From the NCBI GenBank assembly GCA_927362715.1, contig CAKMIX010000006.1, positions 1 through 64,000 of the forward strand: a stretch of 64,000 bases of DNA, written 5' to 3'. The notes beneath the pieces are model-generated. The model ran no database searches. It saw only the letters and a list, made by a program, of their open reading frames with translations, and was not told where the DNA came from. The translations under genes were made by a program, and so were the position numbers. This document shows, one piece after another, positions 26,376 to 30,283 of the stretch (its first letter is position 1; each line of letters starts with the position of its first letter). The DNA comes from an uncultured Clostridia bacterium (lineage in GTDB: Bacteria > Bacillota > Clostridia > Oscillospirales > Acutalibacteraceae).

Positions 26376-27602
26376 TCAGCCTTCACGCTTTTTCTTCAGC
26401 GTGACCGCCGCAACGCCGGCCGCCATGGCAAGCATAGCCGCAGCTGCGATGCCGCCGGCAACCGCGCCGCTGGTCTGCGGGATCTCCGGGTTCGCCGTGC
26501 CGGTCGTACCCTCTTCCGCTTCCGTCGTCAGGACGGGGATCACTTCGGTTTCCACCTCGCCGCAGCGTGCGCAGGTTCTCTGGCGCTCGCCTTCCTCGGT
26601 CTCGGTAGCTTCCTTCACAACAACCCACTCGCCGAAGTCATGCCCGAGTGCCGGGATCTCTTCGGTAACGGTCTCCTCGCAGCGCGCGCAGACGCCGGTT
26701 CTGGAACCCGCCTCGGTGCAGGTGGCTTCCTTGGTGACTTCCCATTCTGCAACGTCATGACCGAGCGCAGCAACAGGTTCGGTCACCGTCTCGCCGCAGC
26801 GTGCGCAGACGCCGGTCTGTACGCCTTCTTCGGTGCAGGTCGGCTCATCCGTTACAGTCCATTCGGACACATCGTGGCCGAGCGCAGCAATCTCGCGGGA
26901 ATTCACTTCCGCATCGCAGACCGTGCACTTTTGGATCTCCTCGCCAGCCTCGGTGCAGGTGGCAGGTGTCTTCACTTCCCAGTCGCCCGCCGTGTGGCCG
27001 GTAGCGGCGATGGTATGGCTTCCAACGACTTGCCCGCAGACTGTGCAGATAATATTCTCGTTACCCGCTTCCGTGCAGGTGGGATATTTTGTAATTTCAG
27101 ACAACTGCGTCGCATGGCCGCAGGCAATCGTCACGGATTTTGTGGAGTTTGCAACGACCTGATCCGTAACGTCTTCGCCGTCCAGCGTGGTGCCGTCAGA
27201 AGCCAAACCAATGTTCAAGCTCAACGCAGAACCGGGTTTTACAACTTGGAGCTGGAATGTAAGCAAAGCGCCGCCTTCTGTAATCGCGCCCGCTGTCGCG
27301 CCTGTATAGCGCACACCGGTTGCATAGTCCAGATTCACTGTCGGGTTCAATGCCACAACCGGCGTGGTTGCAGAATTCGCAACAGGTGTATATGCGGTCC
27401 TGTCGAACTCCACATTGAACTCCAACGCACCAAGATTAGAATTCTCAGACACGGACACCGTCACTGTGATAATATCGCCGGCGTTTGCCGTGGTCTTGTC
27501 CGCAGAAAGCGTGAGCGCCGCCGTGGTATTTACCGCAAACACCGGAACGGCGCACAGGCACACCAGAGCAAAAACCGTCAAAATGCTGACAATCTTTTTC
27601 AT
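26376..27602 (-). CDS. Secreted cohesin-like protein with Cys/His repeats and C-terminal sorting-type anchor
   Basis: A 408-residue surface protein. Residues 1-23 are a signal peptide ending VFA. Residues of about 24-155 resemble a cohesin module: TLSADKTTANAGDIITVTVSVSENSNLGALEFNVEFD, GGALLTFQLQVVKPGSALSL and DGEDVTDQV. Five repeats follow (about 158-365), each with PTCTEAG...C-x2-C...ALGH, giving three Cys and one His per unit. The C-terminus has NPEIPQTSG, a hydrophobic stretch and KKKREG, like a sortase signal with a variant motif. It is paralogous to the protein at 29024. It may be a cell-bound scaffold that holds a dockerin partner. Ribosome site AAGGAAGG. The repeat function is unknown. 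Confidence 0.8.
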   Translation of the reverse strand: MKKIVSILTVFALVCLCAVPVFAVNTTAALTLSADKTTANAGDIITVTVSVSENSNLGALEFNVEFDRTAYTPVANSATTPVVALNPTVNLDYATGVRYTGATAGAITEGGALLTFQLQVVKPGSALSLNIGLASDGTTLDGEDVTDQVVANSTKSVTIACGHATQLSEITKYPTCTEAGNENIICTVCGQVVGSHTIAATGHTAGDWEVKTPATCTEAGEEIQKCTVCDAEVNSREIAALGHDVSEWTVTDEPTCTEEGVQTGVCARCGETVTEPVAALGHDVAEWEVTKEATCTEAGSRTGVCARCEETVTEEIPALGHDFGEWVVVKEATETEEGERQRTCARCGEVETEVIPVLTTEAEEGTTGTANPEIPQTSGAVAGGIAAAAMLAMAAGVAAVTLKKKREG

Positions 27603-28035
27603 AGTTTGTCCTTCCTTTTTTTAGATTTTTGTTTTTATTATAACTCCCCTCCGTACGCACATGGTTTATATCAAAAGCGCAACACTTCCGATATAAGACC
27701 CGCACCCCTCCAAACGGAACGATCCGCACTTGCGTGCACAAAACGGATTTATAATACAATTTCCTGCAAGTGTCGCAATGTAAGCAAAAAGGGCATAATT
27801 ACAGACAACTATACATTATATTTTCTATATTATAGAAGAAATTCTGCATTTTGTCAACGAAATTTTTGAAGATTTACAAAATTATATTGAGCAGTATGTA
27901 CAGATTTTCCGGGCGTCTGAAAATTTTTCCACGTTTTTCTTCAAAACGTGATATTCAGCAACTTTAACTTTCTCGACATATCCGCGAATTGCCCGCATAT
28001 TGTCTCGATTTGCAGACCGCAGCAAAACGGCAGAT
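27603..28035. other. Long gap upstream of the cohesin gene
   Basis: A 433-bp stretch without a convincing gene. On the minus strand it holds TATAAT (27642-27637, in AGTTATAATAAA) with a poor -35, and further upstream TTGCGA with TATTAT 16 bp later (within about 27747-27778), either of which could start the cohesin gene. The 27780-27900 part is very AT-rich compared with its surroundings. Small frames here have no ribosome site or homology that I recognise. Confidence 0.5.
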
Positions 28036-28476
28036 TCATGTTTTTTGCCGATCCATTTCCGCAAGCGGGTGATCGCGGTAGACAAGGTCTGCACGGGGTG
28101 AAAAGCCCATTTTCTGCCAAAAGCGGTTGCCCGCTTCGTTATCGGCGAACACGACCAGAGACGCCTTGTTTACCCCTGCCCGCCGCAGTGCTTGCAGCAC
28201 TGTTTCCACCAGCTGCACCGCAATACCCCGCCGGCGATATTGCGGGTGCACCGCCGTGTGATAGATATACCCCCTGCGTCCGTCGCTGCCTGCCAGGATC
28301 ACGCCCACGATCCGCCCGCTTTTCTCTGCAACAAAGCAGGTGTCGGGATTGCGTCGCAAGAAGCGCGCAATGCCGTCTTGGGAGTCATCCAAATTGTTCA
28401 GACCCATGCCTTTACAGGAACACCACAGTTTATAAACCGCGGTATAATCGTCCAAATGCATTTTCCGAATGTCCAT
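28036..28476 (-). CDS. GNAT-family N-acetyltransferase
   Basis: A 146-residue GCN5-related acetyltransferase. The acetyl-CoA loop is HPQYRRRGIAVQLVETVLQ, after VGVILAGSDGRRGYIYHTAV; the C-terminal ADNEAGNRFWQKMGFSPR is typical. Start MDIRKMHLDDYTAVYKLW with AAGGGGAAA upstream. Substrate unknown: RimI-like protein acetylation or small-molecule acetylation are both possible. It is alone between the cohesin gene and tRNA-Thr. Confidence 0.85.
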   Translation of the reverse strand: MDIRKMHLDDYTAVYKLWCSCKGMGLNNLDDSQDGIARFLRRNPDTCFVAEKSGRIVGVILAGSDGRRGYIYHTAVHPQYRRRGIAVQLVETVLQALRRAGVNKASLVVFADNEAGNRFWQKMGFSPRADLVYRDHPLAEMDRQKT

Positions 28477-28501
28477 GGTTTCCCCTTAGCAAAAATGCTG
28501 T

Positions 28502-28540
28502 AAAAAGCAAAAGCCCGCAATGCGGATTGCGTTGCGGGTT
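28502..28540 (-). terminator. Terminator of tRNA-Thr
   Basis: On the minus strand a 9-bp stem AACCCGCAA/TTGCGGGCT (28540-28532 with 28520-28512) is followed by TTTTGCTTTTTA. It lies 7 nt beyond the tRNA 3' end. Confidence 0.82.
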
Positions 28541-28546
28541 CTTAGC

Positions 28547-28622
28547 TGGAGCTGCTGGGCGGACTCGAACCGCCGACCTGCTGATTACGAATCAGCTGCT
28601 CTACCAACTGAGCCACAGCAGC
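28547..28622 (-). tRNA. tRNA-Thr (anticodon CGT)
   Basis: A 76-nt cloverleaf with encoded CCA. Acceptor GCTGCTG pairs with CAGCAGC, D arm is GCTCAGTTGGTAGAGC, the anticodon stem GCTGA/TCAGC encloses TTCGTAA with anticodon CGT (complement of 28587-28589), and the T arm is GGCGG-TTCGAGT-CCGCC. It reads ACG threonine codons. A consensus-like promoter lies 63 bp upstream and a terminator follows directly. Confidence 0.98.
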
Positions 28623-28684
28623 ATATTGGGTTTTGAGGCTGTTTATATGTGCGTTTCTTCCGAATCGCCCGTGACAGCTTTTAT

Positions 28685-28713
28685 ATTATATCGGATAAAT
28701 ACGGGAATTGCAA
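28685..28713 (-). promoter_or_regulatory. Sigma-A promoter of tRNA-Thr
   Basis: Minus-strand TTGCAA (28713-28708), 17-bp spacer, TATAAT (28690-28685). It fits a strong stable-RNA promoter; transcription would start near 28678. Confidence 0.88.
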
Positions 28714-28833
28714 GAGAAATTTTTGCTTTTTTGACTTTTTGTGTGAGCGGCAGGAAAAAGGTACAAAGGAAGCCTGTAGAAAAACAGGAGCCGACAGCCC
28801 ACAAGTCGGTTGTGAGCCGGAAGCGTATACCCA

Positions 28834-28874
28834 AAACCCGCAGGGCGCGAGCAGCGTCTGCGCTCTGCGGGTTT
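28834..28874 (-). terminator. Terminator below the dockerin gene
   Basis: A 10-bp stem CTGCGGGTTT/AAACCCGCAG (28865-28874 with 28834-28843) whose long loop can pair further through GCGC segments; TTTTGGG follows on the minus strand. The other parts of the 401-bp gap 28623-29023 hold the tRNA promoter and no visible gene. Confidence 0.7.
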
Positions 28875-29023
28875 GTTCAGATTGTCGGTCGCCGTGCATT
28901 GGTTCCTTACCGCACGCTGCTCGAACGGGCACAGAGACTCACCCGCCCTGCGGGGCATAGCATTCTTAACTTTGTGCGAACCTTCCGCACCACTTCTGAT
29001 TTCCGGCGCCCGGTACGCCGCTC

Positions 29024-30283
29024 TTACAGCGTCCGCAGCCCTGCCGCCGCCTGCAGGATCCAACGGGCGTCAACAACACTGACCGTGCCGTCACCATTGA
29101 CATCGGCAAGGGTGGAATACCGAAGCACCCGCAGATCCGCTGCGGTCTGCAAAGCCCAACGCGCATCGATCGCGTTAAGCATGCCGTCTTCGTTTACATC
29201 CCCGACAAGTCCCGTGAGAACATCGATTTCTTCGGTTGCAAGCACTTCGCCGCAGACCTCACAAGATTGGGTGCGCAGCCCTGTTTCTGTGTGGGTAGGC
29301 TCTTTTGTTACAGCCCACTCGCCCGCTGTATGCCCCATTGCGGGAACGATGCTGTCGATATAGCTGTCGCCGCAGGTCGTACAGGTGTGCGTGGTGAAAC
29401 CGTCCTTTGTGCAAGTCGGCGCAGTAACAACCGCCGTGTAGCTGTGCCCGAGCGCTGCCTTATATTCATCCGTGTAGGAATCTCCGCAAATCGAACAGGT
29501 GTGCGTTGTATACCCCTGCTTGGTGCAGGTCGGCGCGGTAACAACCGCCGTATAGTCGTGTCCCGTTGCGGCCAGCACGCGGGTTTCCGTCGCTTTGCAG
29601 GCGGCGCAGACGCGCGTCTCCATGCCGTCCTGCGTGCAGGTCGGCGCAGAGGTCTGTTCCCATTCCCCAAAGCTATGCCCGGACGCCGGGATCTGCTCAA
29701 TCGAGGTTTCGCCGCACACGCTGCAGGTGTAGATCCGCTCTCCGTCCTGTGTACAAGTCGGGGCGGTATACTCCGTTTCCACCATGGTTCCTGCGTGGCT
29801 GCATGCAATCTTTAAAGAATCTGTGGAATTGGCAACGACCTGCTGCGTCACATCCTCACCGTCAAGCGTAGTACCGTCGGTCGCCTGAATCACGGAAAGG
29901 GTCAGCTCACTGCCGGGCTTGAGCGCCCGAAGCTGGAATGTGACCAGCGTGCCGCCCTGCGTGATAAAGCCCGCCGTAGCTGCGCTGTAATACAAACCGT
30001 TCGCGTGGTTTGGGTTGACCGTAGACGCCCACAGGGAGTCCTGCGTATAAGAACCGTCTACATACTGAAATGCAGAACGGTCAAAATCCACGGAAAACTC
30101 CAACGCACCAAGCTTGGAATTTTCAGAGACTGCCACCGTGATCGTGACAATCTCGTTGACACTGACCGTGGTCTTGTCCGCAGACAGCGTGAGTGCCGCT
30201 GTGGTGTTCGTCACCGCGAGTGCAGGCGCCGCACACAGGCACGCCAGCGTAAAGATCAGCAGAATACTTATGACCTTTTTCAT
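29024..30283 (-). CDS. Secreted cohesin-like protein with Cys/His repeats and C-terminal dockerin
   Basis: A 419-residue paralogue of the protein at 26376. A signal peptide (1-23, ending ALA) is followed by a cohesin-like module (about 24-157; TTAALTLSADKTTVSVNEIVTITVAVSENSKLGALEF... is near identical in layout), then five repeats of the type APTCTKQGYTTHTCSICGD...ALGH (about 160-350). The C-terminus (361-419) is a two-repeat type I dockerin: DVNEDGMLNAIDARWALQ and DVNGDGTVSVVDARWILQ, both with complete Ca-binding Asp/Asn loops. It could therefore both offer a cohesin and dock to another cohesin. Ribosome site AAAGGAG. It starts only 20 bp after uxaC, with no terminator between. Confidence 0.88.
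   Translation of the reverse strand: MKKVISILLIFTLACLCAAPALAVTNTTAALTLSADKTTVSVNEIVTITVAVSENSKLGALEFSVDFDRSAFQYVDGSYTQDSLWASTVNPNHANGLYYSAATAGFITQGGTLVTFQLRALKPGSELTLSVIQATDGTTLDGEDVTQQVVANSTDSLKIACSHAGTMVETEYTAPTCTQDGERIYTCSVCGETSIEQIPASGHSFGEWEQTSAPTCTQDGMETRVCAACKATETRVLAATGHDYTAVVTAPTCTKQGYTTHTCSICGDSYTDEYKAALGHSYTAVVTAPTCTKDGFTTHTCTTCGDSYIDSIVPAMGHTAGEWAVTKEPTHTETGLRTQSCEVCGEVLATEEIDVLTGLVGDVNEDGMLNAIDARWALQTAADLRVLRYSTLADVNGDGTVSVVDARWILQAAAGLRTL

Follow-up and report, generated by a model that had tools for sequence, protein, structure and literature searches.

An anchored single-cohesin protein and a dockerin-bearing paralogue as a candidate surface docking system in an uncultured Clostridia bacterium

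Anchored proteins with a single cohesin have been described in Ruminococcus flavefaciens, where ScaE receives symmetrical dockerins, some of them carried by other scaffoldins (PMC2930009, PMC5301203), and where its partners include the symmetrical dockerins of group 4, such as those found on ScaF, ScaH, ScaI and a peptidase (PMC5301203). In Limousia, cSca5 combines an N-terminal single cohesin with a sortase anchor, and its gene ranked first among all genes in expression on mucin and second on glucose (PMC12997984). Here we analysed a 64,000-nucleotide stretch of DNA from an uncultured Clostridia bacterium of the Acutalibacteraceae (GenBank assembly GCA_927362715.1, contig CAKMIX010000006.1, positions 1 to 64,000; hereafter the window), which encodes two paralogous single-cohesin proteins, P1 and P2, whose architectures resemble those of ScaE and ScaH. 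P1 shares the N-terminal cohesin and, putatively, the sortase anchor with cSca5, and may receive dockerins in the manner of ScaE. We propose, with moderate confidence, that the best explanation of the whole is that P1 is a surface receptor displaying proteins with P2-type dockerins, and that P2 is a tail-swapped adaptor on P1.

Domain architecture of P1 and P2

Both genes, like every feature located in the window below, lie on the reverse strand. P1 (26376..27602; 408 aa) and P2 (29024..30283; 419 aa) are open reading frames (ORFs) that begin with signal peptides, as judged by reading, and each carries one cohesin, at residues 31-158 in P1 (27129..27512) and 32-150 in P2 (29834..30190). With PF00963 scores of 33.7 and 38.5 bits, respectively, both modules exceed the Pfam cut-off of 24.1, and they are 63% identical, differing most in the stretch preceding the fifth strand. 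The alignment of the two proteins runs through the last Cys/His repeat (...VLT) and then diverges, with an anchor-type tail in P1 and a two-repeat dockerin in P2 (29027..29212; GDVNEDGMLNAIDARW..., ADVNGDGTVSVVDARW...). The latter is recognised as a type I dockerin (Dockerin_1, PF00404; 29.1 bits against a cut-off of 22.9) and is present in the P2 model; by reading, both of its calcium loops are intact, the rule for such loops being D-x-N-x-D...D. An initial annotation of the window had described two paralogues with signal peptide, cohesin and Cys/His repeats, one of them ending in a dockerin, and this description was borne out.

The AlphaFold2 model of P2 has a mean predicted local distance difference test score (pLDDT) of 86.6, with ten-residue blocks scoring 82-95 in the cohesin, 83-91 in the repeats and 84-94 in the dockerin, while that of P1 has a mean of 83.4 and is unreliable beyond residue 360. 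A fold search with the P2 model returned 75 Protein Data Bank (PDB) matches at E <= 0.001, and the best 50 listed were all cohesin-containing entries. The cohesin profile matched 22 solved chains at E <= 0.001, each identified from its molecule name or as a known entry to be a cohesin or a protein containing one, with antibody chains among the weaker matches. Profile and the predicted fold of P2 thus agree with the initial naming of the N-terminal domains as cohesins, and on these grounds the carbohydrate-binding fold that had been considered in their place was rejected.

Between the cohesin and the C-terminal element, both proteins carry four complete units and one partial unit of the repeat C-x9-CxxC-x11-14-GH (P1: 26565..27077, where pLDDT is mostly >=90; P2: 29252..29755, seen also in the P2 model). 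The P1 repeat matches a single PDB chain sequence, residues 923-980 of the IgA protease chain 9qa6_A (E 1.4e-6), which belongs to the entry of a study on the Thomasclavelia ramosa IgA protease (PMC12237041). In the sections of that study describing this region, the protease contains predicted zinc-binding domains (ZBD1 and ZBD2) of a fold called possibly novel, with two Cys and two His or three Cys and one His as putative zinc ligands and no disulphides seen, and a sortase motif follows further on (PMC12237041). The P1 repeats fit this repeat both by sequence similarity and by the pattern of Cys/His ligands. On the strength of this match, the stalks of P1 and P2 are probably zinc-stapled spacers. 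In T. ramosa the domains come after a peptidase and have been described from predicted models (PMC12237041), whereas the repeats of P1 and P2 are placed as a spacer between the cohesin and the anchor or dockerin; service as a stalk would be a testable use for this predicted zinc-binding repeat in surface proteins of the gut.

The tail of P1 (26379..26483) consists of IPQTSG, a hydrophobic stretch and KKKREG. The motif has Ser at the position of Gly in LPXTG, and TIGR01167 scored 16.5 bits in the genome scan and 12.9 bits when the protein itself was scanned (cut-off 15.9). The P1 model places a low-confidence helix at residues 385-407, and the genome encodes four sortases. The sorting-type anchor named by the initial annotation is therefore putative, and this assignment is weaker than the rest of the observation. 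A non-SLH anchoring scaffoldin is defined by one or more cohesins together with a C-terminal transmembrane (TM) helix or a cell-wall motif (PMC11557425). P1, its tail helix being of low confidence, has this predicted architecture, and P2 has that of a monovalent adaptor as defined in the same study.

Candidate docking partners and promoters of P1-type anchors

Cohesins and dockerins were sought by profile search in the 2.17 Mb assembly that contains the window (genome G000). PF00963 identified six cohesins in five proteins, five of the six hits being above cut-off in the genome scan; four of the six, in three proteins, are additional to P1 and P2, and a further weak cohesin is linked to a dockerin on contig C8. 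The largest cohesin protein found, encoded on C10, has 736 aa and two PF00963 cohesins without a dockerin, while the cohesin of a 392-aa C10 protein (26.4 bits in the genome scan) was unconfirmed by a Pfam scan of the protein. PF00404 found 12 dockerins, and a profile of the window-type dockerin, named DARW after its characteristic residues, added one at C2:114369. The genome search proposed at the outset thus gave 13 dockerin proteins, 12 of them besides P2, a count that any dockerin missed by both profiles would escape. Among these 13 proteins no catalytic glycoside hydrolase family was found (Pfam, E <= 0.01; E <= 1 for P2), and P2 has the only PF00404 hit on the contig of the window. These results fit the statements of the initial annotation that the window holds no enzyme with a dockerin and that the system differs from a classical cellulosome, which is rejected on cargo as far as the two profiles find dockerins.

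The domains found on the dockerin proteins are LRR_5 (BspA type), Transglut_core, Big_2 and List_Bact repeats, together with the chitobiase C-terminal accessory domain CHB_HEX_C_1 on one protein and a below-cut-off alpha/beta hydrolase match on another; one protein resembles the glucosaminidase SagB (NCBIfam 56.8 bits, cut-off 425). By reading, the dockerins of P2 and of the leucine-rich repeat (LRR), glucosaminidase-like and transglutaminase-like proteins share the motif DARWxLQ, which a C4 protein with a dockerin near its N terminus has in one repeat. C2:114369, at 59 bits with the DARW profile, shows DAR in both repeats and the alpha/beta hydrolase protein in just one, giving up to six P2-like dockerin proteins other than P2. 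The profile was built from five proteins of this genome grouped by reading, along with sequences of genome G324, so the 108-116 bits of those five dockerins arise by construction. Three other types were distinguished, again by reading: the two C12 dockerins, which are identical, a single dockerin on C10, and a set of three whose second repeat contains GFD. The dockerins on C10 and C12 each have cohesin genes nearby, which suggests that these cohesins and dockerins may form separate partner sets.

Several of these loci have features of their own. The C10 genes form a second cluster (L023:9682-18610) comprising the 736-aa two-cohesin protein, a 1746-aa repeat protein whose dockerin is of another type, and the 392-aa protein, which has a TM tail. 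On C12, a 1693-aa protein (L025:4355-9436) and a 338-aa cohesin-dockerin protein (L025:12179-13195) have dockerins close to their ends that are identical over 65 residues. Two proteins (L032:8946-10058 and L031:2265-3269) have the dockerin near the N terminus and, judging from the N-terminal sequence, appear to be secreted; the former has no further Pfam match and the latter none at E <= 0.01.

Across this genus of gut bacteria, cohesins and dockerins occur together in all 39 genomes. Counting as a P1-type anchor any cohesin protein that has two or more CxxC units and ends in a hydrophobic tail, we found such proteins in at least 12 of the 39 genomes (G000, G324, G323, G301, G334, G271, G307, G311, G315, G304, G329 and G309). 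This is a lower bound, obtained from the best-scoring window-type cohesin in 35 genomes (all but G300, G098, G200 and G319), and most of the further loci were judged solely on their length, the number of CxxC units and the final 60 residues. Adaptors of the P2 kind are present in three genomes (G000, G324 and G307). The anchor genes of G315 and G304 are each immediately preceded, on the same strand, by a gene for an LRR_5 protein (873 and 1057 aa, respectively) with a DARW dockerin, to which the LRR_5-dockerin protein of G000 is 51% identical over residues 1-224 and 66% identical in the dockerin. This neighbour is the best genetic hint that the P2 type of dockerin may belong to the P1 type of cohesin. 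Genomes with an anchor also hold more dockerins matching the DARW profile, the median being 7.5 in these 12 and 2 in the remaining 27 (one-sided Mann-Whitney p 0.0009, or p 0.003 without G000, G324 and G323). Separately, G332 and G200, both of ~2 Mb, have a much larger set of window-type dockerins (54 and 30, respectively), alongside 3 and 1 PF00963 hits.

A perfect match to the sigma-70 consensus (TTGACA-N17-TATAAT, 12/12 positions by promoter scoring) lies 226 nt before the P1 start (27829..27857), and 11 of the 12 anchor genes have such a site within 450 nt, at distances of 11 to 232 nt from the start, the twelfth (G329) matching at 11 positions; start codons in this survey were chosen by rule, and in G309 the expected position lacks an ATG. 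The best matches of the three adaptor genes are 7 (P2), 8 (P2 of G324) and 10 (G307) of 12, and both LRR-dockerin genes (G315 and G304) reach 10. Outside the anchors, 18 cohesin genes of the genus that encode at most one CxxC unit were scored, of which none has 12/12 and seven have 11/12. As background, 561,871 bases contain 22 perfect sites on both strands, anchor genes included; one of 47 window ORFs, by reading the gene for alanyl-tRNA synthetase, matches at 12/12, P1 itself being absent from this set as a longer antisense frame had displaced it; and random upstream sequences with the nearest-neighbour composition of P1 gave a perfect site in 26 of 200,000. This pattern suggests that the anchor may be made in excess of the adaptor, and strong P1-type promoters would fit the very high expression of the anchored single-cohesin gene of Limousia (PMC12997984). 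The perfect anchor sites besides that of P1 lie at the homologous loci L120, L121, L122, L125, L128, L132, L151, L217, L218 and L219. The 226-nt leader of P1 (27603-27828) is partly conserved in G324, G323, G315 and G304, and no Rfam match to it was found.

Locus history and competing explanations

A GNAT-like acetyltransferase gene (28036..28476; named by reading and taken to stand outside the assembly) and a tRNA-Thr (cgt) gene (28547..28622), the only feature found in the Rfam scan, lie between P2 and P1, so the two do not form a simple operon; an operon is unsupported given the intervening tRNA gene and the promoter match of P1's own. The gene order of the window recurs in G324, with P2 92% and P1 97% identical. 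By contrast, G301 and G334 have a single anchored gene between uxaC and a lipase-like gene (names by reading), without P2. In G323 the P1 side is conserved, and the 1.6 kb past the GNAT-like gene to the contig end hold an M48-like peptidase (by reading) and no P2; a second P1/P2-type cohesin was not found in that genome, where the other matches scored 46 and 32 bits. The minimal two-protein assembly put forward in the initial annotation thus survives as a split into anchored and dockerin-bearing partners, but not as a closed pair, since G301, G334 and, within the reach of its contig, G323 have the anchor but no P2, and since up to six further P2-like dockerin proteins are present. A more fitting reading makes P1 a docking site for broader use, to which P2 would be an optional addition.

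The simplest account of P2 itself is a duplicate of P1 in which the anchor may have been swapped for a dockerin. In the cohesin tree, P2 and its G324 counterpart fall outside a 99/99 group of P1 and the G324, G323, G301 and G334 anchors. Read literally, the duplication would predate the split from G301 and G334, with P2 lost there and in G323; faster change in P2 would give an equal picture. The G307 adaptor is placed apart from P2, which occurs in two genomes (G000 and G324), across a 99/99 branch, so the adaptor label requires at least two changes, although nine of 16 inner branches are open and the direction of change is not fixed. The pair suggests a route by which an anchor could become an adaptor through exchange of its tail.

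Several observations weigh against P1 as the receptor for P2-type dockerins. The 11 perfect anchor promoters are not independent because the genes are related, although their distances to the start nevertheless vary. Perfect sites are also found outside the anchors: G307_C, the third gene of its cluster, has one 100 nt upstream with neither tail nor dockerin, and among 13 other cohesin and dockerin genes of G000 there is 12/12 in one, C2b, which encodes a 335-aa dockerin protein, and 11 in three, while the C10 cohesin gene with a TM tail reaches only 8/12. The LRR neighbours of G315 and G304 count as one case, since both share one locus (82-88% DNA identity), and in R. flavefaciens dockerins from LRR proteins mostly failed to bind the cohesins tested (PMC5301203). 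The comparison of medians ignores kinship and uses a profile drawn from G000 and G324 sequences, and the weaker end of that profile fails to separate dockerin types, with the alpha/beta hydrolase protein at 48.8 bits and the C12 pair at 45.8. DARW dockerins are also plentiful in G332 (54), G327 (16) and G313 (12), where the cohesin examined is no Cys/His anchor, and in G200 (30), whose cohesin was outside the survey. Finally, the sorting motif is off-consensus: the 12 anchors have IPQTSG or IPKTSG in five cases, PRTNG in G334 and no recognisable motif in six.

The alternative that survives best, though we think it unlikely, is that P1 and P2 are parallel, unlinked receptors, the P2 dockerin fitting another cohesin (C10, C12 or C8) and the P2 cohesin collecting other clients. 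The further PF00963 hits and the weak C8 cohesin would allow this, as would the tRNA gene between P2 and P1, their very unlike promoters and the P1-type anchors without P2 in other genomes. Against it, the C10 and C12 cohesins stand beside dockerins of different sequence type, and a P2-type dockerin adjoins a P1-type anchor in the G315/G304 lineage.

Somewhat less probable again is that P2 binds P2 as well as P1, forming chains that start from P1 and in which each unit is a zinc-stapled stalk. With cohesins 63% identical, P2 might equally bind P2 rather than keep its own cohesin free for others, as the initial annotation supposed, and R. flavefaciens offers a precedent in ScaH, whose dockerin recognises the cohesin of ScaH itself (PMC5301203); yet P1 and P2 cohesins differ most before the fifth strand, and the weak P2 promoter match argues against a long polymer. 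A bolder form, which we regard as speculative and a little more doubtful still, is that duplication of the receptor and exchange of its anchor for a plug fitting its own socket produced a self-extending surface fibre, seeded by P1, lengthened by addition of P2 to P2 and capped by glucosaminidase-like, transglutaminase-like and LRR proteins. If true, such a polymer of cohesins and dockerins would have no link to the digestion of polysaccharides, and anchor/adaptor pairs would stand at two or more points of the genus cohesin tree (G000/G324 and G307). Very improbable, finally, is a cohesin-like fold for a carbohydrate or host ligand with the dockerin as a calcium-stabilised ornament: cohesins and many carbohydrate-binding modules do have beta-sandwich folds in common, but sequence profiles and fold search point to cohesins, and cohesin and dockerin co-occur throughout the genus.

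Returning to P1 as a surface receptor, we infer that the P2 dockerin binds the P1 cohesin. P1 would be strongly transcribed and would hold out one cohesin on a rigid, probably zinc-stapled stalk, retained at the cell surface by a C-terminal membrane or sortase anchor. It would display secreted proteins with DARWxLQ dockerins, namely P2, the BspA-type LRR protein, the SagB-like glucosaminidase, the transglutaminase-like protein and two proteins with a dockerin near the N terminus, and P2 docked on P1 would pass the docking site outward and add reach. Its role would probably be to present adhesive and cell-wall-active proteins at the surface. Most known cohesin-dockerin pairs belong to complexes degrading fibre, starch and mucin, and this genome has no recognised catalytic glycoside hydrolase cargo among the dockerin proteins found.

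Relation to described cohesin systems

In the open-licence PubMed Central (PMC) literature we found no paper joining Fimenecus with dockerin, and none joining it with cohesin among the best-ranked 15 of 11,225 matches, where papers with both would have come first; a search on scaffoldin, zinc-binding domain and cohesin returned papers that were off-topic by their titles and the start of their abstracts. New here are the dockerin complement, the spread of the anchors across the genus, the apparently tail-swapped copy, the promoter pattern and the likeness of the repeat to the IgA protease.

The mucinolysome of Limousia differs in its multi-cohesin scaffoldins and up to 22 dockerin CAZymes (PMC12997984), whereas the locus in the window has single cohesins only and dockerin CAZyme cargo was not found. 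ScaE differs in belonging to a large plant-fibre cellulosome with a canonical LPXTG and type III cohesins (PMC2930009, PMC5301203), in contrast to the single cohesins on Cys/His stalks, the off-consensus tail and the dockerin proteins without a detected glycoside hydrolase in G000. R. flavefaciens nevertheless has transglutaminase-like and LRR dockerin proteins, as does this genome (PMC2930009, PMC5301203). The scaffoldin-containing microbes of Minor et al. 2024 are other organisms, and the relevant section of that study makes no mention of a Cys/His stalk or of a tail-swapped pair (PMC11557425). Their few cohesins, single-cohesin proteins with C-terminal TM helices and many non-cellulase dockerin proteins are the features in which they come close to the genome described here (PMC11557425).

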